Source: an uncultured bacterium
GTDB taxonomy: Bacteria > Chloroflexota > Anaerolineae > J036 > Brachytrichaceae
Length of the DNA: 35,248 nt
Direction of reading: 5' to 3'
NCBI GenBank assembly: GCA_903921365.1
Contig: CAIXPS010000119.1
Location: 1 to 35,248, forward strand
Below are positions 17,737 through 34,879 of the stretch, in pieces. Position numbers and translations under genes: made by a program. Numbering within the stretch: position 1 is the stretch's first letter; the number at the start of each line of letters is the position of its first letter. A model generated the notes under the pieces. The model saw only the letters and a program-made list of their open reading frames with translations. It was not told where the DNA came from and searched no databases.

Positions 17737-18672
17737 TCAAGCGTCCGGATCTGGGTTCCACCAGCACGGGCCCTTGTCCTTGCGCGCGGCGAGCGCTCTG
17801 TGGCGAATGTCCTCCAATTCAACCCGCGTGAGCGGCGCAAAGGCGCGCGCTGCGGCGAAGGCTTGATCCTGTTCGTTTGGAAAGCTCAGACCCAGCAACG
17901 CGACGTCCGGGTCGATGGTCATCGTGTAATGCAGGCACTCCCTTACGCTCAATCTCGGCAACACCGCCTCAGTCTCTTCGGCGCCTCCGGATGAAATCTT
18001 GCCGCGCGGGCGCAACTGCATGGGCTGGTTGTAGCCAGTCGTATCCCCCAGCAATTTTCCGGCGCCAAACGTCTTAAAGCAAATGGTTCCCACACCGGAG
18101 GCTTTTACCAGGGGCAGGATATCGTCGATGTAACGTTGATCCACGAACGGGCCAATCGGGAACATGACGATATCGCACAGACCCGCCGTGATGGCTGCCC
18201 GGAGCACGTCAGGATTGTGGGACGAGATGCCGCGCAGCCGCGTCTTTCCGGTGGTCATGCAGCCTCTCAGTTGATCAAACCCGCCGCCGGGTTGTGTGAG
18301 GTTGTGATAGATATCCATCGACGAAAGACCGTGAAAGACAAAAGCGTCTGTGTGGTCGAGTTGCAGGCGTTGCAGCGATGCGTCGATCTGCGGGGCGACT
18401 GGTTCCGCCAGGCGGTCAATCTTGTCGATGACGAATAAGCGCTCGCGGGCGCCCTTTATCGCCTCGCCCACGATCTGTTCGGAATACCCATCCTCATAGC
18501 CGGGCGCCGTGTCGATCACATTCAGTCCGGCATCAATGGCGCGGCGGATCGTGGCCACGCAGGCATCGAGGGAAACATTCCTGTCGGCCAGGTCGCCAAT
18601 GCCCAGGGCCGTTGCCATAAAACCGGTGCGCCCCAATTCACGGCGCGGTTGAAATCGATGTTGATCGCTCAT
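17737..18672 (-). CDS. Aldo/keto reductase
   Basis: A 311-residue NADPH-dependent oxidoreductase of the AKR family with a TIM barrel. It starts RRELGRTGFMATALGIGDL (residues 10-28). The catalytic tetrad can be placed at D54 and Y59 (DTAPGYEDGYSE), K84 (VIDKID) and H114 (FVFHGLSS). The C-terminal segment LLGLSFPNEQDQAF fits the cofactor-binding end of the YccK/Tas-like branch. It probably interconverts a sugar aldehyde/ketone and its alcohol in the cluster that includes the glycosidase-like genes. GAGGAG lies 9 bases before the ATG. It is the first gene of the minus-strand unit. Substrate unknown. Confidence 0.9.
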   Translation of the reverse strand: MSDQHRFQPRRELGRTGFMATALGIGDLADRNVSLDACVATIRRAIDAGLNVIDTAPGYEDGYSEQIVGEAIKGARERLFVIDKIDRLAEPVAPQIDASLQRLQLDHTDAFVFHGLSSMDIYHNLTQPGGGFDQLRGCMTTGKTRLRGISSHNPDVLRAAITAGLCDIVMFPIGPFVDQRYIDDILPLVKASGVGTICFKTFGAGKLLGDTTGYNQPMQLRPRGKISSGGAEETEAVLPRLSVRECLHYTMTIDPDVALLGLSFPNEQDQAFAAARAFAPLTRVELEDIRHRALAARKDKGPCWWNPDPDA

Positions 18673-18732
18673 ATGCTGATGCTCCTCAATGTAATTCTAC
18701 AGAGTTCACACAATCTGACGGCAGGGGCGGAT

Positions 18733-18877
18733 GAGGAAGGTCACCTGAGGTCACGGATTTAACGGATTTTGGGATTGCACGGATTACAGAGGGCGAGCGC
18801 TGGGTAAATCCGTGACCGCAGGTGATGTGTCTGTGTCGATGTCGTGGCGTAAACGCCATTTCGGGCGGAGATTCAGC
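18733..18877. repeat. Direct repeat A, copy 1
   Basis: About 145 bases starting GAGGAAGGTCACC and ending GGAGATTCAGC, repeated almost perfectly at 19587-19728 (few substitutions and a 3-base length difference near the left end). It contains the palindrome-like GGCGTAAACGCC. No coding capacity is evident. Confidence 0.9.
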
Positions 18878-18922
18878 AGGGGCGAAAGCATTGCCTATCG
18901 AAACCATGTTTACCGTGACTGC

Positions 18923-19091
18923 CATGGCAATGTGGCTCTGCACGCCCGGCCGATATCGACGCGAAAACGCCATTTCGGGCAAACCTTCGGCAGGTTGTCG
19001 TTACGGCTTATGACGTCCAGGATAACAGGTTTGTGACCATCGTCGTTTTGTGGTTGGCAACATTCGGGGTGTGCAGAGCCACATTGCCATG
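18923..19091. repeat. Inverted repeat with 21-base perfect arms
   Basis: The 21-base sequence at 18923-18943 (begins CATGGCAATGTGG) is the exact reverse complement of 19071-19091 (begins GTGCAGAGCCAC). The arms are 127 bases apart. A partial third copy (GCAGAGCCACA) lies near 19323. This could be the ends of a small non-autonomous element, but no target duplication was identified. Confidence 0.7.
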
Positions 19092-19210
19092 ACATCATGG
19101 ACAGGCTTCGGTACGTTGGGCAATGCTATCACCCCTACCAAGAAATATGCGCGACCAACATAACACCATCGCCTGATACGCTTCCAGCGCCGCACGCAAG
19201 CGTCACCGAC

Positions 19211-19276
19211 TCATCCGCAAGCTAGTGCAAACGCTGCGAGGATATGGCTGAAATCGTCCTCGGCCAGCAACAGCAT
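19211..19276 (-). pseudogene. Repeated small-ORF start, decayed copy
   Basis: A 21-codon frame, MLLLAEDDFSHILAAFALAC plus one residue, that matches the first half of the MPLLTEDEFRHILEAF frame at 20348 and lies in repeat B. It ends early in TGA, so it is a broken copy of an unidentified short gene. Confidence 0.45.
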
Positions 19277-19372
19277 CGATTCGCGCCGGGGGACGCCACC
19301 GATTGGAAATCGGCGTCTGGCATGCAGAGCCACAAAACCGGCTGAAAGCCGGTTAAGAGATGACACCGTCAC
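19237..19372. repeat. Direct repeat B, copy 1, with two stem-loops
   Basis: About 135 bases matching 20309-20441. It carries the imperfect hairpin GACGCC...GGCGTC (19292-19317, loop GGA) and the perfect hairpin AACCGGCTGAAAGCCGGTT (19336-19354). Both hairpins are conserved in the second copy. Confidence 0.85.
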
Positions 19373-19432
19373 GCCTTCTTGAACGCGCCTATGATTATTG
19401 AGAAAATAGGCCGTACAGACGCATCGCTACTG

Positions 19433-19498
19433 AGGGCGGACACGCAGGTCCGCGCCCTACGTCTTGCATATACGTAGTGGCCGACCTGTGTGTCGGCC
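19433..19498. repeat. Two GC-rich palindromes
   Basis: AGGGCGGAC-N6-GTCCGCGCCCT (19433-19458) and GGCCGAC-N6-GTCGGCC (19479-19498) stand close together. They look like dispersed intergenic palindromes. Confidence 0.6.
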
Positions 19499-19586
19499 TT
19501 CTGTGTACGGTTCTATTAGTTAATCTTCATCAGCGCGTTTGGGCAGTGGTATCAGCTGCGATTTCCATACGCACTGATGGTTGGAC

Positions 19587-19728
19587 GAGGAAGGTCTGAG
19601 GTCACGGATTTAACGGATTTTAGGATTGCACGGATTACAGAGGGCGAGCGCTGGGTGAATCCGTGACCGCAGGTGATGTGTCTGTGTCGATGGCGTGGCG
19701 TAAGCGCCATTACGGGCGGAGATTCAGC
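19587..19728. repeat. Direct repeat A, copy 2
   Basis: Second copy of the element at 18733-18877, in the same orientation. Downstream of both, a shorter block is shared again: TGACCATCGTCGTTT near 19034 and 19771. Confidence 0.9.
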
Positions 19729-19860
19729 CGGTTGGTGTTGCTGGGTACGACGTTCTGGGCAGCGGGTTTATGACCATCGTCGTTTCATTGATACATTGCT
19801 AAAGGCGATGTATACTATGTGCATATCCCCCGGTAGTAACCTAACCGGTGAACCCGGTGC

Positions 19861-19884
19861 GAAGCCGCTCGAAAGAGCGGCTTC
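19861..19884. terminator. Perfect 10-bp hairpin with GAAA loop
   Basis: GAAGCCGCTC-GAAA-GAGCGGCTTC is a stable stem with a GNRA tetraloop. No T-tract follows (CTGCTTTGT), so it may be a structural RNA element and not a terminator. Confidence 0.4.
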
Positions 19885-19912
19885 TGCTTTGTATCGAGGT
19901 GTGCATTGAAGG

Positions 19913-20143
19913 TCAACCAACCGTATCAGATACTTCACGGCATTGGTGGAACCGCGCCCACAGAACCCTGAGCAGTTGAACCGCCAGAGGACGTTTATCA
20001 GAGCGCTGCTGACCATTCCCAATCTCTCGGTTCATTATGGCCACTTCCTGTCCCATGTGGTCACTATGCATCTGGCTCCCCCACAAAACGGATTCGCCAA
20101 GGTCATCAAAACCGAAGAGAAGGGTTCTGACGTGAACCTTGCT
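19913..20143 (+). pseudogene. NYN-domain (PIN-like) ribonuclease remnant
   Basis: The frame from 19913 reads NRIRYFTALVEPRPQNPEQL, then RALLTIPNLSVHYGHFLSHV and VIKTEEKGSDVNLA. This is the middle of an NYN/DUF88 domain protein: the first strand with its catalytic Asp (the usual FNLY region) is missing, and everything after GSDVNLA, including the VVSNDSDL motif, is replaced by unrelated sequence. An intact protein is about 200 residues, so this is an internal fragment cut at both ends. It shows that an NYN nuclease gene once lay next to the BREX locus. It has no functional start. Confidence 0.7.
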
Positions 20144-20348
20144 CAGTCCGCACAAGCAATTTCCCAGCGTCACGCTGAGAAACACCGCTACCTTTTTCAA
20201 ATCGATCAGAGAAGCGACGCTTCGCAAATGCCAATTCCCTGCGACACTCACAGATAGTCACGGTGCATTCAGCAAGCCATCTACCTGGTAAATCCAGCGA
20301 GAACGCCTCGAGAATGTGGCGGAATTCGTCTTCGGTCAGCAACGGCAT
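20106..20348 (-). CDS. Small hypothetical frame, doubtful
   Basis: An 80-residue frame that starts MPLLTEDEFRHILEAFSLDL. It overlaps the end of the NYN remnant and its 5' part lies in repeat B. The repeated copy at 19276 is broken, so a family of short genes may have existed, but the C-terminal half has no recognisable character. Treat it as uncertain; it may be a remnant like its neighbour. Confidence 0.25.
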   Translation of the reverse strand: MPLLTEDEFRHILEAFSLDLPGRWLAECTVTICECRRELAFAKRRFSDRFEKGSGVSQRDAGKLLVRTEQGSRQNPSLRF

Positions 20349-20441
20349 CGATTCGCGCCGCCGGACGCCACCGATTGGAAATCGGCGTCTGGCTCAAGCC
20401 AAAAACCGGCTGAAAGCCGGTTGAGAGATGGCACCGTCGCG
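20309..20441. repeat. Direct repeat B, copy 2
   Basis: Second copy of the element at 19237-19372. The same two hairpins lie at 20364-20389 and 20404-20422 (AACCGGCTGAAAGCCGGTT, identical to copy 1). Confidence 0.85.
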
Positions 20442-20468
20442 CGTTTTGGCTCGCGGTCGACGTGTCAG

Positions 20469-20486
20469 CCGCGATTTCAATCGCGG
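20469..20486. terminator. Palindrome just after brxA
   Basis: CCGCGATTTCAATCGCGG forms an 8-bp stem 6 bases after the brxA stop codon. Its position suits a transcript end for the BREX operon, although no T-tract follows on the minus strand. Confidence 0.45.
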
Positions 20487-20492
20487 AGAGGA

Positions 20493-21278
20493 TTACACGA
20501 TCGCGACCATGTCTTCATCCAACCCGTGGCGCATGAATTCAAGCCGGTGATTGCCAGTGCGCGAGCCGTTCTCCGGCAGGGACAGTTCAAAGGGAAACAG
20601 CGCGGGGGAGCGGACGACGGAGCGCACCTGGCTGGATCCCGCTGTGAACGCGTGTAAATATGCCTCGGTGAGCCAAAGCGCATAAGCGCCCTGCGCGCGG
20701 CGCGGTTTCGCGGGCTCATAACCACCCACGTGATTGGGTTGCTTTGACAACAATCCCCACTGGGTGATGCTTTGCACCACGCGTTGGGCTGAACGTGTGA
20801 TCGTTTGGCGTTCGCCAAACGTCTCGTAAACGCGCCGCAGGAGTTGCGGCATGTTGAATTCACCCTGCAAGGTCGCCAGCCGCCCGACCGATTCCGCCAC
20901 GGATGCAAAGAATGGATAGACGGCCATCGACATGCCCCAGTGCAACGCCAGACGCTCATCAGCCGCGCCCTGATGCCACAGCAGCAGGCCTTCGTCGCGC
21001 ATGGCGCGCAGGCGCTCAGGCGGCGCCACCCATACATTGACAAGAATGGAAATGACCTTGTCACGGGTGCTGCGCACAGCCTCTGTACCCACGGATACGC
21101 GATCCTTCAATAGGTCTGTGAGCGCAACCTGTGCGGCTGTTTTGTCAAGACCTTGTTGTGCAAGGCCGGCGGCCGCGTCGATCCAGCCAAACTCAACATA
21201 TTGGCTGAACCCTGCCTGCTGGCTGCGGGCGCGTCCATGAAAACGCGGCGCATCACCGCTATCTACTCGTGTGGTCAT
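20493..21278 (-). CDS. brxA: BrxA-like protein of a BREX type 3 operon (DUF1819-like)
   Basis: A 261-residue soluble protein, last gene of the BREX operon. Motif evidence is modest: a helical body with LLWHQGAADERLALHWGMSM and YPFFASVAESVGRLATLQGEF, then ITQWGLLSKQ (winged-helix-like) and YALWLTEAYLHAF. Position and length fit the small BrxA protein that closes type 3 BREX loci after pglZ. BrxA of other types is a DNA-binding protein needed for methylation and defence. I chose the ATG at 21278 because it overlaps the pglZ stop in ATGA; the longer frame runs inside pglZ. The assignment is mainly by context. Confidence 0.7.
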   Translation of the reverse strand: MTTRVDSGDAPRFHGRARSQQAGFSQYVEFGWIDAAAGLAQQGLDKTAAQVALTDLLKDRVSVGTEAVRSTRDKVISILVNVWVAPPERLRAMRDEGLLLWHQGAADERLALHWGMSMAVYPFFASVAESVGRLATLQGEFNMPQLLRRVYETFGERQTITRSAQRVVQSITQWGLLSKQPNHVGGYEPAKPRRAQGAYALWLTEAYLHAFTAGSSQVRSVVRSPALFPFELSLPENGSRTGNHRLEFMRHGLDEDMVAIV

Positions 21279-23440
21279 CCTGGTAATCCTTTTGCGTGTC
21301 TGCCGATGAACACGTACGGCACCACCATTTCTTCCAGCGCAACGCCGCCATGTGTGACAAACGTTTGCCCCACGGGCGCAAACGCTTTCCGCCCGGGCGC
21401 CAATAGCGCGAAGTAATCCGGGGGCAGGCCGATCTGCGGCCACGCCAGGCGGATCGCATCCGGGAAACGCTCACGCGCCCGGCTGCGCAGTGCGGCGCTG
21501 GGATATACGCGCACGCGCTTGTCGCGCAACTCGGTCACGGCGTTATCAGTGAAAAGCCCGATGCCCTGCGCCTCGATATTGCCATGATCCGCCGTAAGCA
21601 CAACGTCAAAGTCGTTTTCCAGCAGCAGATCGAGCGCGCGCGCCAGTATGCCGCGCTCCGCCCATAAGCGCACCTGGCTGCGCATGCCGGCCATCCCCAG
21701 CGGCGTGCCGTGCATGATCTCATCCACCGTATCGAACACCACGCCCAACGCGCGCACGGAGGGATCACGCGCCAGGCGGTTTAATCGGGGCAAATCGTCG
21801 TCGCTGCGCAACGCGCCCACATACCCGACCTGGTCGGGGCGCAATCCCTGCTCTGCCCAGAACCTGCCCCACGCTTTCTCGTCACCGCCGGAGGTATTGA
21901 TGCGGTCGGGGAAGAGCGCAGGAGGCTGGCCCGCAAATAGCGCCTGGCGCGATACCGGCGTCACGGTGGGCGCCCACGCGAACAGTGCGCCATCCTGAAT
22001 ACTGAGCAACGCCCGTTGCTGCAACAACACCTCGCGCAAAATGCGCCACTGGTCAAGCGCCAGACCGTCAATCACCACAAGCGCACACCTGTGCTGCGGG
22101 TTGGCGCGCAGTTGGCGCGCAAGCGCGCGCGGGATGTGATGCACCATCGCCGGTGTGAGCGGCGAAAGGTTGTGCAGCCCGGCGTATCCTGCCAGCATCC
22201 ATTGGCCAAACGCCTCGTCGATGCGCTGCTGTAGCGTCATGAATTGTTGTGTCAGGTTCGGGCTATGCCGGTCGCTCGCGGTCACGGCCTGATCATGCCA
22301 GGACGACATTGCCTCGGCCCAGCGCAGGGCAAACGCAATCCATTCTGTGTGACGCGCGTCGGCGCCAGGTATGTCTTTGGAGAGTGTTTCGAGCAACCGA
22401 GCCAGCCGCTTGAGCCGCCCGGCTACTGCGTCCACACGAATCCCGACGTTCAACAGTGCATCAGTGAAAAGCTGTCGCAGCGCGCCGGCGGGCGCATCGT
22501 CGGACGGCGCCACATCAATCGGGCGCAACCGCCCATCCAGGAACAACGTGTCGATATAAGGGCGCACCTGCGCATGATCAAATGGGAGCACGGACGGACC
22601 GGGATAGGCGAAGAGCACGCCCTGCGCCTCGCCGAACAGGGCTAAACCGTTTACCTCCTTGATATGGGAACGCACAAACGCCGGCCAGCGCTCTTGCAGA
22701 AAGGCATAGGTCGCTTCGGCGCTCGTGAGCAGCCTCTCCAGCGGCCATTCGGCCAGCAGCGCATGGCTTTGCATTCCCTGCCACAAGACCGCGACCCGGT
22801 TGGCAAAATCGCCCGGCAGCGCGGACATCCCGCGCCGCGTCTCGTGCAGGCGCAATAGCGCGACGAGCGCATCACTCTCGGAAGGGGCGCGCTGCATGTC
22901 CAACCCGAAGACGCGCCCCAGGATAAAGTCCGTGCTGGCGTCTTTGCCCAGCATCTGCGGCCCAAAATCCATGCCCATAGCCGACTGTTCGTGATACAGC
23001 GCGTCGAGGTCGGCGCGCGCGAGCATGGTCACGGCGCCGGTGTGCAGGTTGGGGAAAAGATCGGCCAGCCCGAAGCGCAGTTGCTGGCCGCCCGATCGCG
23101 CCGCGCTGAGCAAATCCCACGGCAGGCGTTGCAACGCCTCCGCATCGCCGTTCACCAGAATGACCAACGCCCGCTCTACCCCGCTGTCGCCCGGCGCCTC
23201 TGCTGTATCGGCATCTTCCCGGGCGAGCCGGAACTCGCTCTCATACTGGTAACGCAACGCCATCAGGTCGCTGCTGTTCGGGTCATAAGTGAGCACGCCG
23301 CAACCCCTTTGCCGCAATTGACCGAGCACCCGTTCATCGTCGACCAGGCCATCCGGGTCCGCGACCAGTGTGACGCGCGCGCCCGGCGTGAATGCGTCGA
23401 GTATGCGGTCGCTGAGCGAGTAATCCAGCGGCGATGTCAT
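21275..23440 (-). CDS. pglZ: BREX phosphatase-like protein PglZ
   Basis: A 721-residue protein. The C-terminal third is an alkaline-phosphatase-superfamily domain: ALVVIDGLALDQW near residue 450 carries the first metal-binding Asp, VVLTADHGNIEAQG near 615 the Asp-His pair, and FVTHGGVALEEMVVPYV near 700 the last His. The N-terminal two thirds (LVADPDGLVDDERV..., then helical) match the PglZ proteins of BREX. PglZ is a core defence component that associates with PglX and nucleic acid; a phosphatase or nuclease activity is supported in some systems only. It starts 12 bases after the pglX stop with no helicase gene between, and overlaps brxA by 4 bases. Confidence 0.88.
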   Translation of the reverse strand: MTSPLDYSLSDRILDAFTPGARVTLVADPDGLVDDERVLGQLRQRGCGVLTYDPNSSDLMALRYQYESEFRLAREDADTAEAPGDSGVERALVILVNGDAEALQRLPWDLLSAARSGGQQLRFGLADLFPNLHTGAVTMLARADLDALYHEQSAMGMDFGPQMLGKDASTDFILGRVFGLDMQRAPSESDALVALLRLHETRRGMSALPGDFANRVAVLWQGMQSHALLAEWPLERLLTSAEATYAFLQERWPAFVRSHIKEVNGLALFGEAQGVLFAYPGPSVLPFDHAQVRPYIDTLFLDGRLRPIDVAPSDDAPAGALRQLFTDALLNVGIRVDAVAGRLKRLARLLETLSKDIPGADARHTEWIAFALRWAEAMSSWHDQAVTASDRHSPNLTQQFMTLQQRIDEAFGQWMLAGYAGLHNLSPLTPAMVHHIPRALARQLRANPQHRCALVVIDGLALDQWRILREVLLQQRALLSIQDGALFAWAPTVTPVSRQALFAGQPPALFPDRINTSGGDEKAWGRFWAEQGLRPDQVGYVGALRSDDDLPRLNRLARDPSVRALGVVFDTVDEIMHGTPLGMAGMRSQVRLWAERGILARALDLLLENDFDVVLTADHGNIEAQGIGLFTDNAVTELRDKRVRVYPSAALRSRARERFPDAIRLAWPQIGLPPDYFALLAPGRKAFAPVGQTFVTHGGVALEEMVVPYVFIGRHAKGLPG

Positions 23441-23452
23441 GACCAGTTACGC

Positions 23453-26400
23453 TTAACCGCCCAGGCGCGCCTGCGCCTGGCCGTACCACAGCAACAGCCT
23501 GGGGTCTTCGTTGACCACATCCTCGGGCAGCCGCTTGCCGATCTCCACGATGGTCTGAAAGTCGCGCGATTGCCAGGCGCGCTTGAAGCCGGCGCGCAAC
23601 GCTTCCAGGCGGAACTCGCGCAACCGCCGCGGTGCGCCCGTCCCTTTGCGCTTCTTTGTGGCGGGCTCGCCGATCAACAACGGTGTTGTGTCACCCAGGA
23701 TCACCGCCAGGTACCCGTCGAACTCGCGCAGCAGTTGCGTTTCGCGGATGCGCTCCAGGTCGCCGGCCTTGTTGGGATCGGGCACGTACCAGCGCCCGTT
23801 GGCCTTGGCGCGCAGAGCGGGGTCGTCCTTGGGCAGGTTGCGGCACTCCTTGAAGTTGGTCGAGAGATAGCCGTGGATCTGGTTAGGCACATCGGCGGCG
23901 CCCTCGTAGCGCAGGAAGTTGAGCGCCAGCAGGTCCTGCAATTCTGGCCGCACTTCGTACTTCTTCCACCCGGCGTTGAGTTGTTGCATGAACTCAGGGA
24001 GCAGGTCTTGCGTGGTGCTGGGTCGCGCGCCGAGGGTGTTGCGCAGCCAGTCGATGGCGCTACGCTCGTCCTGCACGAAGAGCGCCTGCTGCCCCAGCTC
24101 CCCCGCGCGCAGGCGGCGCCGGTCGTATTCGGCCGCCTGGTCGCTGAGGAAAGCCATGTTGTCGCGCATGATGAAACGCTCGGCCAGGCCGGTCTGGAAG
24201 TCGATGGAGGACAACGGCACCGGGAAACCATGCCGCACGAAGTAGGCCACCACGCGGTCGTACAGGATGCGCGGGTCGCGCTCGATCACCACCTCCAGGC
24301 GGTTTCCTTTCATGCGCGTGACGGGCAGATAATGCAGGTGCGCGCGCACGAAGTCCCATGTCGAGGCTTCGCCGCCGCCGGCGCGGGTGAAGCGCTCCTC
24401 CAACCCGCCATTGGGTTTGTACGCGCTGATGACCAGGTCCTGCTTGACCGCCGTGGTTGTGGTGACGGCTTTGAAGCTGCCGCGCTGCTTATCCAGCACC
24501 GAGACGTTGGCCACGACGAAACCGGCTTCCTGTAATGCGGTCTGAATGGCGTTCCACACGCTGGCCTGCGTGTTGCTAAACTCTACGGTCATCCAGCGAC
24601 CCGGCTTGAGGATACGGAACGCCTCTGCAAAGCAGCGCGTCATCAAGACGCGGTATTGGTCAAGTCCTTTGTTCTGGGTCTTGCTTTGGACAGCTTCCGG
24701 CTTGTTATTTGTGATATCCCTGAGCCAGGCTTCCCATAGGAAGTTCAGGTCAGAGTACATAAGATTATCGCCAAACGGCGGATCGATAAACAGGTAATCT
24801 GCGCTTTCATCAGGCATTGAGATGCGTTCTGCGCTCTGGGTCGCGATAACCGTATTTCTGATGCGCTGTTGAGAAAAGGCGCGCTTCAAGCGTTTGAGCT
24901 TTTCTGTAAAAGCATAGTCCGGTGATACCTCAGAAATCTGTGAGCCAAAGTAAAGCGTGCCCGCAAGATTGCGATTATTTTGTGAGAAATGATGCGGCGA
25001 GTACCGGTTTAGCCTTGAGAAACCAATGATCCACTGTTCAAACAAGAAGCGGCAGAACGAGCCCACCCTCCTATCTTTTACCTCGTTGGCTTTGTAAAGT
25101 AAAGCCGAGAGTATCCATTTACTTCGCTGAACATAGTAATGATGCACATGCGTGACACCGGTGCGATCGTTCCGTCGCGCTTCATCTCCCTCGGGCATTC
25201 GATCAGCGGGAAACCAATATGGACTATCCAATTTGTCAACATGAGAAAGGATAGCTTTATCGAAAACGTCTGCTGATTTCTCATAGTGACGCTTGCCGAT
25301 AGAGTAATTTAGCAATACTGGTGTTTGACGAGTTTGGCGAATAGTCCTATTCAGTGTACGGTCATAGTAGCTGGACCATGCATGGGCCAGCGCACGTTTA
25401 GTAACTTCAACGTTGCAATGCGGACAGAAAAAAGCTTCGCGCACCATGCCAGACTCGTGATCAACAGCGGCATCCCAGAACACGATCTCGCCATTGCATT
25501 GTGGGCACACAAACACATCGCTCCACACCGTGTAATTGATGCGGCCCATCTTGTCTTTGTGGGCGGCGATCAAGGCGCGCGCATCGTCGGCGCTATGGCA
25601 GGCGCGCAACTGATCGGCCAGCGCTCCCCTCTCCCCTGCCCCTCTCCCAGAGGGAGAGGGGTTAGGGGAGAGGGTGGCATACATCCAGCCGCACTCGGCC
25701 TCAACCTCAGCCAGGATGCGTTTGGCCTCGCGCTCGAAGGCGTCTACATCCACCGGCGTGTTGTAGTTGTAGGCGATAAAAGTGGCAGCGGGTGACAGGT
25801 CATTCAGAATGGCGCGGCGGGCGCCCAGGCGCGTGAACGGTTTCCACACCTGCTTGACGACGCCCGCCTCATCCTGCGCCTCTTCCTGTCGCAGGACAGT
25901 GCCATCATCGTCCACGCGATAGCCCAGTGACTCCACGGCCTTGCGGTCGCCGCACAGTTGGGCGGCTACGCCGGTCATACCCGTGCCGCAGAAGCCGTCA
26001 AAAACCACGTCGCCCGGCTCGGTGTAGTGCAAAATGTAGCGCATGATGGCTTTGTGCGGCACTTTGGTGTGGTAGCTGTGCGCGTTGTAGATCGGGTCGT
26101 TCTTGCCTTCGCTCACGTCGGCGGCGAATGGTTCGCGGCTGTAGGGCGGCTGGGGATCAGTCGCTTCGGGCGAGGAGTTCTGCCAGTGTTGCAGGAAATC
26201 CGGGATGAACGGGTTGGGACAGGCGGTGTAATAAGGCGGGTCGGACAAGGCCAGGATGTCGTCATCGCTGCCGATGGGAAAACCCTCGATCCGGCGGAAA
26301 GCGGGGTCTTGCAGTTTCGCGCGCAGCTTTGCGGTGAAGTAGGCGCGGCGTTCCGCGTCACTGTCGAACGTTAGACCCAGGCAGGCGACCGGCGTGGATT

Positions 26401-26479
26401 CGCCGGCCTGACCGGTCGTGTAGAGCGAAGGCGTCTCCAGCAGGCGCGCCTGGTGGTGAGTGGCGTAAGTGTCAATCAT
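23453..26479 (-). CDS. pglX: BREX type 3 DNA methyltransferase PglX (PglXI)
   Basis: A 1008-residue amino-methyltransferase. Catalytic motif IV appears as LSDPPYYTACPNPF at residues 78-91 and SAM-binding motif I as FDGFCGTGMTG at 160-170, so the motifs are permuted. A zinc ribbon (Cys 325, 328, 352, 355) follows, and a second DPPFGDNLMYSD lies near 565. It should methylate a short host DNA motif that marks self against phage. Between residues 269 and 285 it has an in-frame insert (SPNPSPSGRGAGERG) encoded by a palindromic repeat. The segment around 24.7-25.5 kb has clearly lower GC than its flanks. Its start overlaps the brxC stop by 8 bases. Confidence 0.88.
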   Translation of the reverse strand: MIDTYATHHQARLLETPSLYTTGQAGESTPVACLGLTFDSDAERRAYFTAKLRAKLQDPAFRRIEGFPIGSDDDILALSDPPYYTACPNPFIPDFLQHWQNSSPEATDPQPPYSREPFAADVSEGKNDPIYNAHSYHTKVPHKAIMRYILHYTEPGDVVFDGFCGTGMTGVAAQLCGDRKAVESLGYRVDDDGTVLRQEEAQDEAGVVKQVWKPFTRLGARRAILNDLSPAATFIAYNYNTPVDVDAFEREAKRILAEVEAECGWMYATLSPNPSPSGRGAGERGALADQLRACHSADDARALIAAHKDKMGRINYTVWSDVFVCPQCNGEIVFWDAAVDHESGMVREAFFCPHCNVEVTKRALAHAWSSYYDRTLNRTIRQTRQTPVLLNYSIGKRHYEKSADVFDKAILSHVDKLDSPYWFPADRMPEGDEARRNDRTGVTHVHHYYVQRSKWILSALLYKANEVKDRRVGSFCRFLFEQWIIGFSRLNRYSPHHFSQNNRNLAGTLYFGSQISEVSPDYAFTEKLKRLKRAFSQQRIRNTVIATQSAERISMPDESADYLFIDPPFGDNLMYSDLNFLWEAWLRDITNNKPEAVQSKTQNKGLDQYRVLMTRCFAEAFRILKPGRWMTVEFSNTQASVWNAIQTALQEAGFVVANVSVLDKQRGSFKAVTTTTAVKQDLVISAYKPNGGLEERFTRAGGGEASTWDFVRAHLHYLPVTRMKGNRLEVVIERDPRILYDRVVAYFVRHGFPVPLSSIDFQTGLAERFIMRDNMAFLSDQAAEYDRRRLRAGELGQQALFVQDERSAIDWLRNTLGARPSTTQDLLPEFMQQLNAGWKKYEVRPELQDLLALNFLRYEGAADVPNQIHGYLSTNFKECRNLPKDDPALRAKANGRWYVPDPNKAGDLERIRETQLLREFDGYLAVILGDTTPLLIGEPATKKRKGTGAPRRLREFRLEALRAGFKRAWQSRDFQTIVEIGKRLPEDVVNEDPRLLLWYGQAQARLGG
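25627..25674. repeat. Palindromic repeat inserted in frame within pglX
   Basis: A 48-base imperfect palindrome of pyrimidine-rich CCCTCTCCCC and purine-rich GGGGAGAGGG arms. It belongs to a recognisable class of dispersed bacterial repeats that translate as SPNPSPSGRG, and here it is in frame. Confidence 0.8.
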
Positions 26480-29400
26480 AGAGAGTAATCAGCGCAACGC
26501 GCACCTTGGCCGGGTCTTTGCCATGCGCCAGGCTATCGACGTAGCGCTCGAAGCGTTGCTTGATTTCATCGGGTGTGGCAGGCAGGCCGCCAGCAGACAA
26601 GCACGCTTGCACATCCGCCTGTTTCATAAACACCTGTTGCAGCCCGGATAGCGCTTCCTTCACCGCTTCGACAAACTCCTCGGAGAGCGGCTCGGGCAGC
26701 TTCTGACCACGGATGAACAGCGCGATGCGATCCCGGTCGGCCTCCTGCATCGCGGCGATGCTGGGCTGGGTAACCTGCGCCTGCAGTTCCTCCAGCAACG
26801 TGCGCGTGAAGTCGGCCAACAGGCGATCCTGTTCGGCGTCAAACTGCTTGAGTTGTTCGCCGACGGGCTGCGGGGCGCTCTCGCGCGCCGGGTTAAAGCT
26901 GCACTGCGGGCAGATGGCGGCATTTTGCAGATCAGCCTGCGTCAACGTGAAGCACGACTGCAAATTGCCCAGCCTGGCCTGATAGGTGACCAGTTGGGTG
27001 TGCCACAGCGGGTTGATCCGGCCAAGCTGCCGCAGCTTGATCAACCGGGGATCGCGCATCAAGGCCACTTTACGATGATCCTGCTCGGCCGTCAGGCGCG
27101 CGCGCCCATGCAAGGCCAGGTAGGCGCCGGCATAGTCCTGTTTGAGCGCGGTCAGTTTCTGCAACGCCTGCTGCCTGAATCCAGGCTTGGCGCGTTGCGC
27201 CGGGGCCGCCAGTTGCGTCGCCAGTTCGTCGCGCAATGCCTTGGCGCGCTCCAGCCAGGGGTATTCGGGCGGCAAGACCAGCTCCGCCTGCGCCAGATAG
27301 CCAGTGAATGGTTGCAATTCGGCCAGCAGATCAAACAGCGCCTGCAACGCGTTGAGCGTGTCGAGCGCCGGTTGCTGCGCCTTCACGGAAGAGACATCGT
27401 GTTGGAAGTTCTTCAACTGAGCGGCAGTGCGGTAATTCTGAACGCCGTCAAAGAACGTCTTTGCCGCATCCAGGTCGCGTTGATAGCCCGCCAGTTCCTG
27501 ATCGGCCAGGATGCCCTTGCCCCAGAAAGCCGGGACGGATTGCAGGCGGTGCCGCATCGTCGCAATCTGCCGGGCGCGCTCCTCGACGGCGGTTTGCAGT
27601 TGTTTGAAGGAGGCCTCCTGTCCCTGCGCGATCATGTCCGCTGAGCCGGGCGGCAGCCCCACCAGTTCGAACAGCGCCCGCAACGCGGCGATATTCCATT
27701 CTTTGGGCGGTTCGATATGCTTGAAGTTGGCCAGTTCCTGCACCGGCTTCGCAACCAGCCGGTCGAAATTGGCAGCGTCAAACTTCTCGCCCGGCAGCAC
27801 CAGCACCGCATCGCCGTTATAGACCAGCGCGCCAAGCAACACGGCCACCCACTCAGGCTCCAGGCGGTAGCGTCGCGCCGCCATGTATTCCACGCCCTGG
27901 ACGTTCTCGATCAACTCGTTGCGGTTGAGCACCTGGCCAGCCGGCTTCTGGCGCAATAGCTGGATGATGTAAGCCGCATACCGCGAGTGTGTCACGTTGA
28001 CGCGCTCGCCGTCCAGCAACTCCAGCGCGTCCAGCACCGCCGTGCCCTGTTGCGTGCGCGCCAGACCGCGCAGGAAGCGCAAAGCGTCCTGACCGGCCTG
28101 GGCGCGGTTGCTGGATGTAATCAGCGTCGCAAACTTCGGGTACTCCGGCGCGGCGTTCTCGAAGTGCGGCGCAAGGCAGGCCGATGCGACGGCGTTGACC
28201 ATGTCGCGCACGTTCGTGAGCTTTGCGCCCGCGGCAGCGGGGCGGTTGGTCAACCATTCCATCATCTTGCGCGTTTTGCCCTGGCAGGTGACAGTGACTG
28301 ATGCCGCCATGTTGCCTTGCAGCCAGCGCACCAGTTCGCGCAGATAGCCATAGGCTTTGGTTTCGTACACACTCTTGGCCTGGCCGGATGATTCCTGGAA
28401 CAGAATGCTCGCCGCGGCATACTTGGTGAGCGCCAGGCTGAACGCGTCGTCGGTCTCTTTGAGCTTGAAGAATACATCGTTGGACAGCTTCTCGTCGCGG
28501 AAGCGCGCGGACGACTTGTGTGGCATGAAATAGATGTAAAAGTCGCGCGGCGGCGCTGCCGTCGAGCGCTCGTTGGGCGTGCCAAAGAACAGGTAGCCCA
28601 GGCGCGTGGCGCGGCGCTCCTGCCATTCCAACTCGTGCTCCCAGATTCGGTAGCCGGTGACGTAGGTCTGGTCCACGCATTCCATGACGCGTTTGAGCGC
28701 CTCAAAATAGTAGCGATCCAGTTCATCTTCGCTCAAGGCTTCGGCGCGCTTATCCAACTGCGCGTCATAGTCCACAACTTTGCGCGCGTCCAGGTAAAAC
28801 TGTCCGCTGGGCGTGCCTCGCGCATCCCGTTCGGTGGAGGACAGGAACTGCCCATTCACCACGCGCGAGATCGTGATTAACGCCACCTCAACCTCGCCGC
28901 GCAAATCATCGGCGGGGTCGCCGCCCATCTCGGCGACCAGCGGGTCATACAGGCATAGCATGTCGCGCAGATTCGGGGCGGTCAGACCCACGGCTGTGTC
29001 GATGTTGCCTGTGGAGAGCCGGTGCACGCTCAGGCCATGAATGATGCGGCGCGCGAACGCCTTGTTCCTGCCCTTCGGATATTGCGTATCAATCAGGCTT
29101 TCAAGCTTGTTGCTGCAATCGATCACCTCGCGCACGTCCGGGATGGTGCGGAAGGCGGGATTCTGGCGCAATGTTTCCCAGTACGCGTCGAATGACAGTA
29201 TGCCGGGTTGGTCTTCCGGCAAGTCGCTGTCGAGCATGCGCTCCATGGCGCGCGAGAGCGTCCGCAGAACTTCGCGCCGTTCGACGACCACCAGGCGGTC
29301 GAATACTTCGACATAGTCGGGGTGGATAGGGAACATACTCACGAACTCTTCCATCCGCCCCGCCATGCCCTCATAGTATTTGGCGAAACCGCTCAAGCGC

Positions 29401-30215
29401 TCCTCCACCGCGGCGCGTTGTTGGGGCGTTTTCTTCAACAGGCGTTGGGCAACCACATACTTCACGTCTTTGCGCGCGATCAACACCTGCTCAAAACGGT
29501 CGCGCACGCGCAGCACTGTGCCAGCGACGAACGAGAACCGCGCGTTGTCAAAGAGCGTCTCCTGCAAGCCGCCGATGAAGCGAAATCTTAGGTCCTTGCA
29601 GACCTCGCCCACCTCACGCAGAAACTGGAGGTCCTGGATCAATTCCTGGTCCTTGCGCGTTCGCAGGAAATCCAGCAGTTCATCCACGGCCAGCAGGACG
29701 CCCATACCGGGGTGCTTTAGTTCGAAGGCGGCCATCATGTCCTCAAAGGACGCTTTGCTGTTGATGACCTGGGTTGCGGGCGGGAAGCGATAGGCGACGC
29801 CAAGCGATTCCAGGAATTCTTCCAGGACTGCGACGACAATGTCGCGCAACGACATCTGTGTAGAGCCAATTTCCGCGCGCGCGACCTTGAATCGCCCTGC
29901 AATCTGAGCGGCGCTTTTGCGCGCGGCGTCGTGTTCTAATTTGCCCAGCAGTTCCGCGTGCTCGGCGACGGCGGTGATCACTGACATGAGATGCGATTTA
30001 CCGGTGCCGTAGTTGCCCACAATCAACAAACCACGGTTATCCGCCGGGTGGTCAAACTGCAACTGGGGAATAACGATGGATAGCAGGCGCTCGGCCATCT
30101 CTTCTGAGATCACGAACGTGGAGACCAACTGGGTGGCGCGGCTCAAGTCGTCCGCGTCGCGCAATTGCACCACCGTTTCGATTGGATCGAACTGGATGAG
30201 ATCACGGTACTTCAT
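26472..30215 (-). CDS. brxC: BREX type 3 P-loop ATPase BrxC (DUF6079)
   Basis: A 1247-residue ATPase. Walker A is GNYGTGKS (residues 67-74) and Walker B VLLAVDE (173-179). The AAA-like core runs through about residue 450. It is followed by a long helical body and, near residue 1100, a Cys pair (ICPQC). The length and the start MKYRDLIQFDPIETVVQL match the DUF6079-type BrxC of type 3 BREX. BrxC proteins are required for both methylation and phage exclusion and probably form nucleotide-dependent assemblies on DNA. The ATG overlaps the brxF stop in ATGA and the gene end overlaps pglX by 8 bases, so the operon is tightly coupled. Confidence 0.88.
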   Translation of the reverse strand: MKYRDLIQFDPIETVVQLRDADDLSRATQLVSTFVISEEMAERLLSIVIPQLQFDHPADNRGLLIVGNYGTGKSHLMSVITAVAEHAELLGKLEHDAARKSAAQIAGRFKVARAEIGSTQMSLRDIVVAVLEEFLESLGVAYRFPPATQVINSKASFEDMMAAFELKHPGMGVLLAVDELLDFLRTRKDQELIQDLQFLREVGEVCKDLRFRFIGGLQETLFDNARFSFVAGTVLRVRDRFEQVLIARKDVKYVVAQRLLKKTPQQRAAVEERLSGFAKYYEGMAGRMEEFVSMFPIHPDYVEVFDRLVVVERREVLRTLSRAMERMLDSDLPEDQPGILSFDAYWETLRQNPAFRTIPDVREVIDCSNKLESLIDTQYPKGRNKAFARRIIHGLSVHRLSTGNIDTAVGLTAPNLRDMLCLYDPLVAEMGGDPADDLRGEVEVALITISRVVNGQFLSSTERDARGTPSGQFYLDARKVVDYDAQLDKRAEALSEDELDRYYFEALKRVMECVDQTYVTGYRIWEHELEWQERRATRLGYLFFGTPNERSTAAPPRDFYIYFMPHKSSARFRDEKLSNDVFFKLKETDDAFSLALTKYAAASILFQESSGQAKSVYETKAYGYLRELVRWLQGNMAASVTVTCQGKTRKMMEWLTNRPAAAGAKLTNVRDMVNAVASACLAPHFENAAPEYPKFATLITSSNRAQAGQDALRFLRGLARTQQGTAVLDALELLDGERVNVTHSRYAAYIIQLLRQKPAGQVLNRNELIENVQGVEYMAARRYRLEPEWVAVLLGALVYNGDAVLVLPGEKFDAANFDRLVAKPVQELANFKHIEPPKEWNIAALRALFELVGLPPGSADMIAQGQEASFKQLQTAVEERARQIATMRHRLQSVPAFWGKGILADQELAGYQRDLDAAKTFFDGVQNYRTAAQLKNFQHDVSSVKAQQPALDTLNALQALFDLLAELQPFTGYLAQAELVLPPEYPWLERAKALRDELATQLAAPAQRAKPGFRQQALQKLTALKQDYAGAYLALHGRARLTAEQDHRKVALMRDPRLIKLRQLGRINPLWHTQLVTYQARLGNLQSCFTLTQADLQNAAICPQCSFNPARESAPQPVGEQLKQFDAEQDRLLADFTRTLLEELQAQVTQPSIAAMQEADRDRIALFIRGQKLPEPLSEEFVEAVKEALSGLQQVFMKQADVQACLSAGGLPATPDEIKQRFERYVDSLAHGKDPAKVRVALITLYD

Positions 30216-30742
30216 TGATATTGACGATCTTCCTTAAGAATGACTTCCACCCCATTATGACGTAGTTCGGCCTGAGCATAATGGCGATATTCCACATGGC
30301 CGGGTTGCGCATAACTCAAGTTCCCACCGTCGGCGGCGCCGGGCCACATCACCACGAGCCGAGTGTTGCGGGCGACATTTGCAAGCAAACCAAGCGGGTC
30401 CTGGCGGAGTTGCTGATCGAAAAGAACTTCGATGGTATCGAGCACGACGCCGCCGCTTTTTTGCGCCTCGACGATTTGCCGCACGGCCACCAGCACTTCG
30501 GCTGGCCGGCGACGCGGTAACACCTCAATTAATCGACGACTCAGCGCCAGCCCCAACCGAACCAGCGGATATTCAAGCGCCTGCGCCAGATACCCGGATG
30601 CCGCTCGGCTCTTATCTCTATCAGGCAAAACGACGACGATAAGTTGACGCCCCGCTAGCAGCGCCGACTGTACTTTCAGCTCGATGCCTGTATCAAAGTG
30701 GGGAAGTTCCATGAGTTCCGTCAATTCTATAGACAATCGCAT
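30212..30742 (-). CDS. brxF: BREX type 3 protein BrxF with degenerate P-loop
   Basis: A 176-residue protein, first gene of the BREX operon. The conserved C-terminal block GGVVLDTIEVLFDQQLRQDP, then LVVMWPGA and LSYAQPGHVEYRHY, is the recognisable BrxF signature of type 3 systems. The Walker A position reads VVLPDRDKS: the Lys-Ser is kept but the glycines are lost, so nucleotide binding is doubtful. The frame is open upstream to a TTG at 30781, which lies inside the intergenic palindrome, so I favour the ATG at 30742. An ATG at 30712 (MELPHFDTG) is a possible alternative. A weak minus-strand promoter (TTGTAG-N18-TTATAC) overlaps the divergent operator. Confidence 0.8.
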   Translation of the reverse strand: MRLSIELTELMELPHFDTGIELKVQSALLAGRQLIVVVLPDRDKSRAASGYLAQALEYPLVRLGLALSRRLIEVLPRRRPAEVLVAVRQIVEAQKSGGVVLDTIEVLFDQQLRQDPLGLLANVARNTRLVVMWPGAADGGNLSYAQPGHVEYRHYAQAELRHNGVEVILKEDRQYQ

Positions 30743-30762
30743 CCCCTGCAAGGGGACGGCTG

Positions 30763-30796
30763 TATAATCTTTGTAGCGCAATACGCTACAAAGGAG
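30763..30796. promoter_or_regulatory. -10 box, palindromic operator and RBS of the Phd/PIN operon
   Basis: On the plus strand: TATAAT (30763-30768), then a perfect inverted repeat TTTGTAGCG-N5-CGCTACAAA (30770-30792), then AGGAG (30792-30796) 5 bases before the antitoxin ATG. The palindrome covers the likely transcript start, the usual place for an autoregulatory antitoxin operator. It also lies just upstream of brxF on the other strand. No good -35 box is seen. Confidence 0.75.
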
Positions 30797-30801
30797 CTGA
30801 A

Positions 30802-31155
30802 ATGGAGTTTATACCCTATCGAGTCTTACGAAATGAACCTGCTGCCCTGCGCAAGAAGCTGCAAGACGAGGGCGAAGTGGTGGTAACGGTGGATGGCAAA
30901 CCTTTTGCGGTGATGATCGACCTGGCCGGCAGCGAGGATATGGATGATATTTTGCTCATGGTTTCACGCCTGCGGGCGCAAATGGCGGCGCGCGCGATTC
31001 GCAGCCAGTCCCGGCGCGATGGGCTGGATCACCTGAGCGAAGAACAAGTGGATGCGCTTATCCAGAAAACACGCGCGGAGCGCAAAAACGGCTCGGCGTC
31101 CCTCGCGGATGGCTCTGCATCCCCTGCGGATTGCTCGGCCTCCATTGGGGAATGA
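30802..31155 (+). CDS. Phd/YefM-family antitoxin
   Basis: A 117-residue antitoxin. The N-terminal Phd/YefM DNA-binding fold reads FIPYRVLRNEPAALRKKLQD followed by GEVVVTVDGKPFAVMIDLAG (about residues 24-43), with the characteristic G-P/F-AVMI strand. The C-terminal part would wrap the PIN toxin. The last ~21 residues are a Ser/Ala repeat (GSASLAD, GSASPAD, CSASIGE) from a 21-base tandem repeat, unusual for an antitoxin tail. AGGAG lies 5 bases before the ATG. The stop overlaps the toxin start in ATGA. It probably represses its own promoter through the palindrome, and perhaps also the divergent BREX operon. Confidence 0.88.
   Translation: MEFIPYRVLRNEPAALRKKLQDEGEVVVTVDGKPFAVMIDLAGSEDMDDILLMVSRLRAQMAARAIRSQSRRDGLDHLSEEQVDALIQKTRAERKNGSASLADGSASPADCSASIGE
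31090..31152. repeat. 21-base tandem repeat, 3 copies, at the end of the antitoxin gene
   Basis: Three imperfect 21-base units (31090-31110, 31111-31131, 31132-31152) encode GSASLAD, GSASPAD and CSASIGE. The last unit also holds the toxin's ribosome-binding region (GGGGA). The number of units may alter toxin translation. Confidence 0.7.
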
Positions 31156-31571
31156 TGTTGGTAGTTTTGGATACAAACGTCTTGGTCAGTGGGCTAATGA
31201 GCACAACAGGCAAGCCTGCGATGATCATTGACCTGGTCCTTGAAAATCGTTTTCAGGTCGCGTACGATAACCGGATTCTGGGTGAATATGAAGATGTGCT
31301 GGCGCGACCCGAACTGCGTATTCAACCGGCGCGCGCCAAGGCAGTGATTGCGTATATTGAACTGACCGGGCGTGAAATTGAGCCCGGCGTCCTGCTTCCA
31401 GATGGGTTTCAAGACCTTGATGATCTGCCGTTTGCAGAGGTGTTCATCACAGCCAATGCTCAGGCTTTGGTGACTGGCAACCTGCGTCATTTTTCCGCAT
31501 TAGTTGCAAAAGGATTGGCAGTGTTTTCTCCATCTCAGTTTCTTGAACGGTGTTTCCCGCGGAGCGAATGA
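31152..31571 (+). CDS. PIN-domain toxin (TIGR00305 type)
   Basis: A 139-residue PIN-domain RNase. MLVVLDTNVLVSGL gives the first catalytic Asp, EYEDVLARPEL the conserved Glu, DLDDLPFAEVF the second Asp cluster, and VTGNLRHF the last metal-side motif. The acidic active site is therefore intact. The family is the toxin half of Phd- or VapB-type modules and cleaves RNA when free. MM at the start gives two overlapping options (31152 and 31155), both within the antitoxin end; GGGGA upstream serves as ribosome-binding site. The longer reading from a TTG at 31131 is unlikely. It ends 28 bases from the convergent M23-like gene. Confidence 0.9.
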   Translation: MMLVVLDTNVLVSGLMSTTGKPAMIIDLVLENRFQVAYDNRILGEYEDVLARPELRIQPARAKAVIAYIELTGREIEPGVLLPDGFQDLDDLPFAEVFITANAQALVTGNLRHFSALVAKGLAVFSPSQFLERCFPRSE

Positions 31572-31599: not shown

Positions 31600-33189
31600 T
31601 CACCACTGCACCCCATTCGTATACAGTTCCTTGCACTCGCATGGTGTCCGTGTGAGCCGGCCGTTCGTGATCGCCCCGTCATACTCCATCTCTCCCTCCG
31701 AAGCCACCCACCCGCCGATCACAAACGGCGTCGCGCCCACGGCGTTCAGCCATTCGCCGTTGTACTTGCGCGCCAGGTGGACGTGCGAGCCGTTGGTGAC
31801 GCCTCCTTCGCACGAGGGATGGCCGATGGGATCGCCAATGGTCACGCGATCGCCCACTTTGACCCGGCCGTCCGAGCGGATGTGCATGTAGAGAATGCTC
31901 CAGCCGGTGTGCTCGTCACCGCTGGGGTCGAGCGACTCCACGACCTCGCCGTTGAAGCTGCGCGCGATCGTGCCAGTGATCATCGCCGTGACCCAGTCGT
32001 TCAGTTCGTTACAGCCGTACCCGCTCATCGAGGTGAAGTCGAGCGCGCCCCACGGCGACCCGGCGCCCCAGGTGCTGTGCGGCCCGCCGGTGAACAGCCA
32101 CGTCTCGCCCTTCGTCCACGGTAAAGTCAGCGTGGGCTGTTTGAGATCATCCGGCACGAGTTGACCAAGATCATATTGCCACGGATCGCCGAACAGGCGC
32201 TTGTAGGTCTGGATGAACCCGTTAGTCCCGTTGCCCAGCACATTCAGCCAGACCGGCTGCGTACTGACAGCCGCGAGGTAGTTCTGCACCCCGGCTGTGC
32301 CGGCGTTGATCCCGTTGCCCATGAAGGCCCTCTGGCCGTCGTCGAGGCGCACCCACAGCCGGGTCGCCAGCCGCCAGCCGTAGTACCCTTCGTTCAAGCG
32401 CATGGCCGCCCAGTTCAACTGCACGTTCAGGTTGTCGCCCTTCGTGCGCACATACCCCAGTGGGAACTTCAATCGGTCTCCCGTCGGCGCCGGGTCGTCC
32501 AGCCAGCCGCCCTTGTATTCGAGCAGCGCCAGCAGGAGGCGCGGATGCACGCTGTATTGCTCTGCGACGCGCGCGACAAGATGTGCGCCGGTCATTTCCA
32601 CACCCTCGACCGTCTCGGTATAAGTGTTCAGATAGCCCTGCGGGTGCGCCGCCATGTACGCGTCGATGTTGAACTGAATGGCGGTCGGGCTGTTGACCAA
32701 CTCGCTATCGGGGATCAGCTTGATCGATGGGGCGTGCCCCTCAATCAGCAGATGGATGTCGATGATCTGCCCGGCCTTGAGCATGTCAGCATCAGTCAGG
32801 TTATTCATCTGCAACAACTCGGAGATGGTGGCGCCAGTCGCGACCGCGATCCCGCTCAACGTATCGCCGCTGCGGACGATGTAGGTCGAAGTAATCACGC
32901 CATGTATGGGGATATTCCGCAATGGATCGAGCGTCGGCGTCGCGCGAGCGGGCGCATCGGTTACGGTGGGCGCCATCGCAGGGCCGCTGCGGGGGGCTAT
33001 AGAAGCCTGCCCCTGGACAGTCGCGGTTGCCGTGGTAGGGGTGCCCGCCGATTCATCGGTGGGCGGCATGTTCGTCGATGCCGGTGCGGTGCTGCATGCA
33101 ATCAAAGCGACGCTGGCGACCAGCGCAAGACATAATTCTATTGTTCTACTGCGTCTCACCGCTCCAATTCTAACCAAACGGCGTGACAA
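31600..33189 (-). CDS. LysM plus M23-like peptidase lipoprotein
   Basis: A 529-residue exported protein. A basic N-terminus and a hydrophobic stretch end in the lipobox LIAC (C32), so it should be a lipoprotein. A Pro/Thr-rich linker follows and one LysM domain is at residues 102-147 (TYIVRSGDTLSGIA). The middle region (LLALLEYKGGWLDDP) is shared with the neighbouring paralog. The C-terminal M23-type domain has GGPHSTWGAGSPWGALDF near 366 (metal-side His and Asp) and GSHVHLARKYNGEW near 465 (HxH). It would bind and cut peptidoglycan or another glycan-peptide at the cell surface. The start is uncertain: the first codon is TTG and a GTG at 33159 has GGAG only two bases away. Confidence 0.85.
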   Translation of the reverse strand: MSRRLVRIGAVRRSRTIELCLALVASVALIACSTAPASTNMPPTDESAGTPTTATATVQGQASIAPRSGPAMAPTVTDAPARATPTLDPLRNIPIHGVITSTYIVRSGDTLSGIAVATGATISELLQMNNLTDADMLKAGQIIDIHLLIEGHAPSIKLIPDSELVNSPTAIQFNIDAYMAAHPQGYLNTYTETVEGVEMTGAHLVARVAEQYSVHPRLLLALLEYKGGWLDDPAPTGDRLKFPLGYVRTKGDNLNVQLNWAAMRLNEGYYGWRLATRLWVRLDDGQRAFMGNGINAGTAGVQNYLAAVSTQPVWLNVLGNGTNGFIQTYKRLFGDPWQYDLGQLVPDDLKQPTLTLPWTKGETWLFTGGPHSTWGAGSPWGALDFTSMSGYGCNELNDWVTAMITGTIARSFNGEVVESLDPSGDEHTGWSILYMHIRSDGRVKVGDRVTIGDPIGHPSCEGGVTNGSHVHLARKYNGEWLNAVGATPFVIGGWVASEGEMEYDGAITNGRLTRTPCECKELYTNGVQW

Positions 33190-33284
33190 CTACATGACCG
33201 CCGGGCTAAGGAGCCCACCGATCGGCATACGAAGAGCAGGAAGCAGGGGCCATGCAATCTCTAATCCCAAATCTCCACTCTCTC

Positions 33285-34826: not shown

Positions 34827-34879
34827 TGGAGTGCCTTTCACGTCAGGCATTTTAGCATCTGGAGGTCATTGGCCCAGTT

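Follow-up and report, generated by a model that had tools for sequence, protein, structure and literature searches.

Can a type 3 BREX operon work without the helicase gene that it usually carries? The mechanism by which BREX stops phages is still debated; apart from PglZ, attention centres on its motor or helicase parts (BrxL, BrxHI and BrxHII). Canonical type 3 BREX has the order brxF-brxC-pglXI-brxHII-pglZ-brxA, as in Limnohabitans sp. Jir72 (L016/L146) and on the Leisingera thetidis plasmid pBMJM1_5 (L122). We analysed a DNA window of 35,248 nucleotides, which is an entire contig (C119); the draft genome that it belongs to totals 6.88 Mb in 603 contigs, with 96.9% completeness and 2.9% contamination. 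On the minus strand, from 30742 to 20493, the window carries brxF-brxC-pglXI-pglZ-brxA as a single, tightly coupled and co-directional block. The features are as follows.

30212..30781, minus strand: brxF, encoding an inactive STAND-type NTPase, the BrxB counterpart (PADLOC PDLC02497, 107 bits, 2e-31).
26472..30215, minus strand: brxC, encoding a DUF6079 ATPase of 1247 aa (PADLOC PDLC02482, 1648 bits; Pfam PF19557, 1517 bits).
23453..26479, minus strand: pglXI/brxXI, encoding an N6-adenine DNA methyltransferase of 1008 aa (PADLOC PDLC02541, 1349 bits; Pfam PF01555).
23441..23452, minus strand: the 12-base pglX-pglZ spacer, at the canonical type 3 position of brxHII, with no BrxHII remnant.
21275..23440, minus strand: pglZ, encoding a protein of 721 aa (PADLOC PDLC02558, 640 bits; Pfam PF08665).
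20493..21278, minus strand: brxA, encoding a DNA-binding protein of 261 aa (PADLOC PDLC02444, 236 bits, 1.4e-70).
30802..31571, plus strand: a Phd/YefM antitoxin and PIN toxin pair (Pfam PF02604, below cutoff, and PF13470).

A sequence-only reading of the window had recognised the five-gene order as type 3 BREX, and all five genes do match PADLOC type 3 models, with Pfam in agreement for the three families known to it (DUF6079, N6_N4_Mtase and PglZ). The spacing it gave was confirmed on the minus strand, with overlaps of 4 bases for brxF/brxC, 8 for brxC/pglX and 4 for pglZ/brxA, and 12 bases between pglX and pglZ. A sole coordinate needed correction: 30742, taken as the start of brxF, is an in-frame internal ATG, while the frame can open at TTG 30781. 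The brxA start was placed by its ATGA overlap. A sigma-70 promoter and terminator scan gave a result no better than chance.

The divergent Phd/YefM and PIN pair upstream of brxF is probably a separate module. The remaining window genes examined (phosphodiesterases, glycosyltransferases, transporters, a tRNA deacylase, the antitoxin/PIN pair and two LysM-M23 peptidases) are unrelated to BREX; the two peptidase genes (31600-34850, upstream of the operon) are adjacent and similar, probably through duplication. Directly after brxA, the non-coding stretch 18600-20494 contains direct repeats that have diverged (136, 103, 98 and 54 bases long) together with short hairpins. One of these, ACCGGCTGAAAGCCGGT, is present at 10 exact sites genome-wide (reversed control, 0). 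This element looks like a REP-type intergenic repeat. Within pglX, at 25627-25674, lies an inverted repeat, CCCTCTCCCC...GGGGAGAGGG, which is in frame and translated as LSPNPSPSGRGAGERG; it is apparently a dispersed repeat inserted into pglX that leaves the gene unbroken.

Each of the five proteins points to type 3. BrxC is the DUF6079 ATPase of the type 3 clade (PDLC02482, PF19557), and the methyltransferase is PglXI (BrxXI), not a type I/II PglX (PDLC02541, motifs intact). PglZ matches the type 3 model PDLC02558, has its catalytic residues, and is placed among type 3 loci in the PglZ tree, and both BrxF and BrxA are present in the order brxF-brxC-pglXI-pglZ-brxA. The usual sixth gene, brxHII, is absent from the operon, the window and the assembled genome. 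The survey by Rakesh and Krishnan 2026 (PMC12839542) gives BrxHII for 702 taxa, or 77% of type 3 systems, and calls it well conserved. By implication, about 23% of the systems that it classes as type 3 are missing BrxHII, and so its absence does not exclude membership. The passages found contain no discussion of that absence, and part of the BrxHII-lacking remainder may be incomplete loci. The window locus is thus a BREX type 3 operon without the usual helicase gene. It shares with canonical type 3 the five common genes, their order, the protein families and the close coupling, and differs in that BrxHII, an SNF2 helicase of ~950 aa, is missing and that 12 bases lead from pglX to pglZ. We also considered a DUF499-centred BREX-related (BR) system, which would have a related ATPase and methyltransferase and, in type 3 BR, also PglZ and an iSTAND partner. 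This was rejected, as those systems have a DUF499 ATPase and retain a helicase, whereas the ATPase here is DUF6079 (1517 bits) and the locus has no helicase.

To place the operon among its relatives, we took BrxC relatives from named genomes, same-class and same-phylum relatives and plasmids, fetched these loci with their surroundings and annotated them. Counting only loci with a readable pglX-pglZ interval or a helicase, 21 (the window included) are without an intact BrxHII and 14 have one, in a sample built around the window's class that gives no population estimate. When the 19 other helicase-less genomes were scanned throughout, none yielded a BrxHII (top score 388 bits). Close relatives of the window operon were not found, the nearest PglZ being 45% identical. 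The exact five-gene order without a helicase recurs in L105, a locus from the window's class that also has the 12-base pglX-pglZ gap, and on the closed Enterococcus faecium plasmid pP47-180 (NZ_CP091103.1; L123), where the gap is 8 bases and the locus is annotated BREX-3 by NCBI; both are distant from the window in sequence, and PglZ of the E. faecium plasmid has only 488 aa. That pglZ copy is uninterrupted, whereas on another E. faecium plasmid, pZA2-1_01 (L152; CP063640.1, 10010-12819), an IS256-type transposase interrupts pglZ in the same five-gene operon. With 20 other helicase-less loci found, this closed plasmid among them, the sequence-only reading of the operon as a new minimal variant is not supported, and the 77% given in the survey already implies such absence. 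It is an ordinary type 3 variant of a kind already known.

The helicase-less loci differ in what else they carry. An Atribacteria MAG (L024) has the same five genes with the positions of pglX and brxC swapped; in Sporomusa ovata DSM 2662 (L020/L139), a pair of other genes occupies the helicase position. This pair (L020:16677-19644) encodes a 635-aa AAA/OLD-like ATPase (NsnB-like by PADLOC) and a protein of 360 aa with no family assigned, possibly an embedded second defence module. Accessory genes vary (PD-(D/E)XK nuclease, Schlafen/AlbA_2, AAA/OLD-like ATPase, IS200 transposase and AbiEi-like), with no common substitute gene present in all helicase-less loci and no such gene in the window. In Bacterium BMS3Abin06 (L135:13321-13692), a 113-aa N-terminal BrxHII stub, 81% identical to the BrxHII of L134, sits directly before an intact pglZ, showing BrxHII loss by deletion, caught in progress. 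In two further loci of the window's class (L106 and L110), what stands before PglZ and BrxA is one protein of ~1660-1710 aa that matches neither BrxC nor PglX, possibly another BREX-related arrangement.

The history of the helicase was read from trees of PglZ and PglX. In the PglZ tree of 35 rows the helicase state needs ten changes, or nine when the three longest branches are removed, and a single clade of all helicase-less loci was rejected (p-AU 3e-53). The PglX tree agrees, with seven changes, at least six of which are forced by well-supported branches. The roughly nine to ten changes in the PglZ trees mark BrxHII as an often-lost part. The window pairs with the helicase-bearing L096 in the PglZ tree (98/95), and its own loss was therefore probably a separate one. 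One clade (100/100), whose nine loci come from several families, has no helicase in any member and keeps every checked PglZ catalytic residue, a pattern that speaks for BrxHII-free loci being maintained in the long term. Mildly new here is the evidence for repeated absence of BrxHII and for at least one lineage that has stably done without it.

Might the helicase instead be hidden, misplaced or replaced? With ten BrxHII proteins as tblastn queries, no trace of a hidden or diverged BrxHII was seen in the operon or the rest of the window, and Pfam detected no helicase gene there, in line with the sequence-only reading. That reading had held open two further places for it, a sequencing gap at 23441-23452 and another site in the genome. 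Loss of the helicase in assembly or binning, either at the pglX-pglZ junction or with a missing contig, is conceivable for a draft of 603 contigs from which ~3% may be missing; the window, however, has 0 ambiguous N bases and hence no marked gap at 23441-23452, and the junction is clean (stop codon, 12 bases, start codon). Similar junctions occur in the closed plasmid L123 (8-base gap) and in L105 (12-base gap), and operon-like spacing is improbable from a random join, so that we regard an artefact as the least probable of the alternatives, with very little in its favour. Elsewhere in the assembled draft genome, one protein query and one profile found no BrxHII, the best SNF2 match reaching 344 bits compared with 1404-1574 bits for true type 3 BrxHII of helicase-bearing genomes. 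Contigs C74, C256, C355, C460 and C525 do encode further SNF2-type defence helicases (Hma-, DISARM- and Dpd/Zorya-like), showing that the genome is rich in defence systems, and several of these are RapA/DrmD-like (for example on C74, C256, C460 and C355), so one of Hma or DISARM type could in principle replace BrxHII in trans. These candidates, however, reach just 174-344 bits on the BrxHII model and are better explained as Hma, DISARM DrmD and Dpd/Zorya proteins, and where partners are seen they adjoin their own (HmaB on C460, DrmMI on C355). Several other helicase-less genomes have no such SNF2 match above the 1e-100 limit, meaning that no substitute is consistently coinherited, and replacement in trans is accordingly very unlikely.

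The main rival is a modification-only remnant, in which host DNA methylation persists and phage exclusion has been lost together with BrxHII. For this speaks type I BREX of E. coli and Acinetobacter, in which BrxL is dispensable for methylation and required for restriction (PMC11341690; PMC13326643). PglZ is a nuclease, and in type I its nuclease activity is not required for methylation (PMC12205998), so loss of the nuclease residues is what one would predict for a relic that does nothing but methylate; these are retained in every helicase-less locus compared, the nine-locus clade included. The sequence-only reading had described the motifs of all five genes as intact, which held when conserved columns were counted against 19 to 34 relatives and catalytic residues checked singly. 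The window copy keeps 69/73 strongly conserved columns in PglZ, 246/249 in PglX and 240/255 in BrxC. The PglZ metal-site and nucleophile residues (D458, T494, D573, H577, D618, H619 and H697) are intact and identical in all 35 rows compared, and the PglZ domain aligns with its PorX-type counterpart of solved structure (8ted, 8p6f). PglXI has its SDPPY and DPPF motifs and four Zn-type cysteines, and BrxC its Walker A (G67..G72-K73-S74) and Walker B (D178-E179). With conserved columns and catalytic motifs retained, the operon is not visibly broken, and we consider a remnant unlikely, if less so than an artefact or a helicase in trans.

The reading that we prefer, with a probability of about 0.7, is that this is a type 3 BREX operon that has lost its accessory SNF2-type BrxHII and most likely still works. 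The parallels for helicase-free function are drawn from type I BREX, which has different proteins. Methylation and restriction both proceed without brxL in the Salmonella type I system (PMC11341690), a published parallel to the helicase-free phage exclusion that had been thought to be without description. The D23580 system with brxL deleted resembles the window locus in being a BREX core without a motor protein, with function on the window's side presumed; it differs in its order (brxA-brxB-brxC-pglX-pglZ), in having BrxB and in another methyltransferase class, and type I BrxL is an AAA+ protein whereas type 3 BrxHII is of the SNF2 family. For helicase-less type 3 systems themselves, our literature search found no published phage or methylation data. 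PglZ has been proposed as the primary effector (PMC12839542).

In such a five-gene system, BrxF, BrxC, PglXI and PglZ would form a complex that methylates host adenine at N6 and scans DNA, with BrxA contributing DNA contact. On meeting unmethylated phage DNA, the complex would switch to restriction and PglZ would nick or cut the DNA, with the BrxC ATPase as sole motor. On this view BrxHII would boost the system by unwinding or remodelling the target and could be spared with some hosts and phages, in the way that Salmonella type I BREX can spare BrxL. More broadly, we lean slightly towards BrxHII-independent type 3 BREX being a stable functional class that has arisen many times, in which BrxHII is an optional booster and BrxF-BrxC-PglXI-PglZ-BrxA the minimal restriction machine, with PglZ as the nuclease. 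What is observed of this class is that BrxHII is repeatedly absent and that one clade has no helicase throughout; its activity is predicted.

The window locus alone adds little to this picture. Taken together with its counterparts, it shows natural type 3 operons that are repeatedly without BrxHII and keep the catalytic residues of PglZ, which points to PglZ and BrxC as the core of the system, and the five-gene operon is a small system suited to testing that core.
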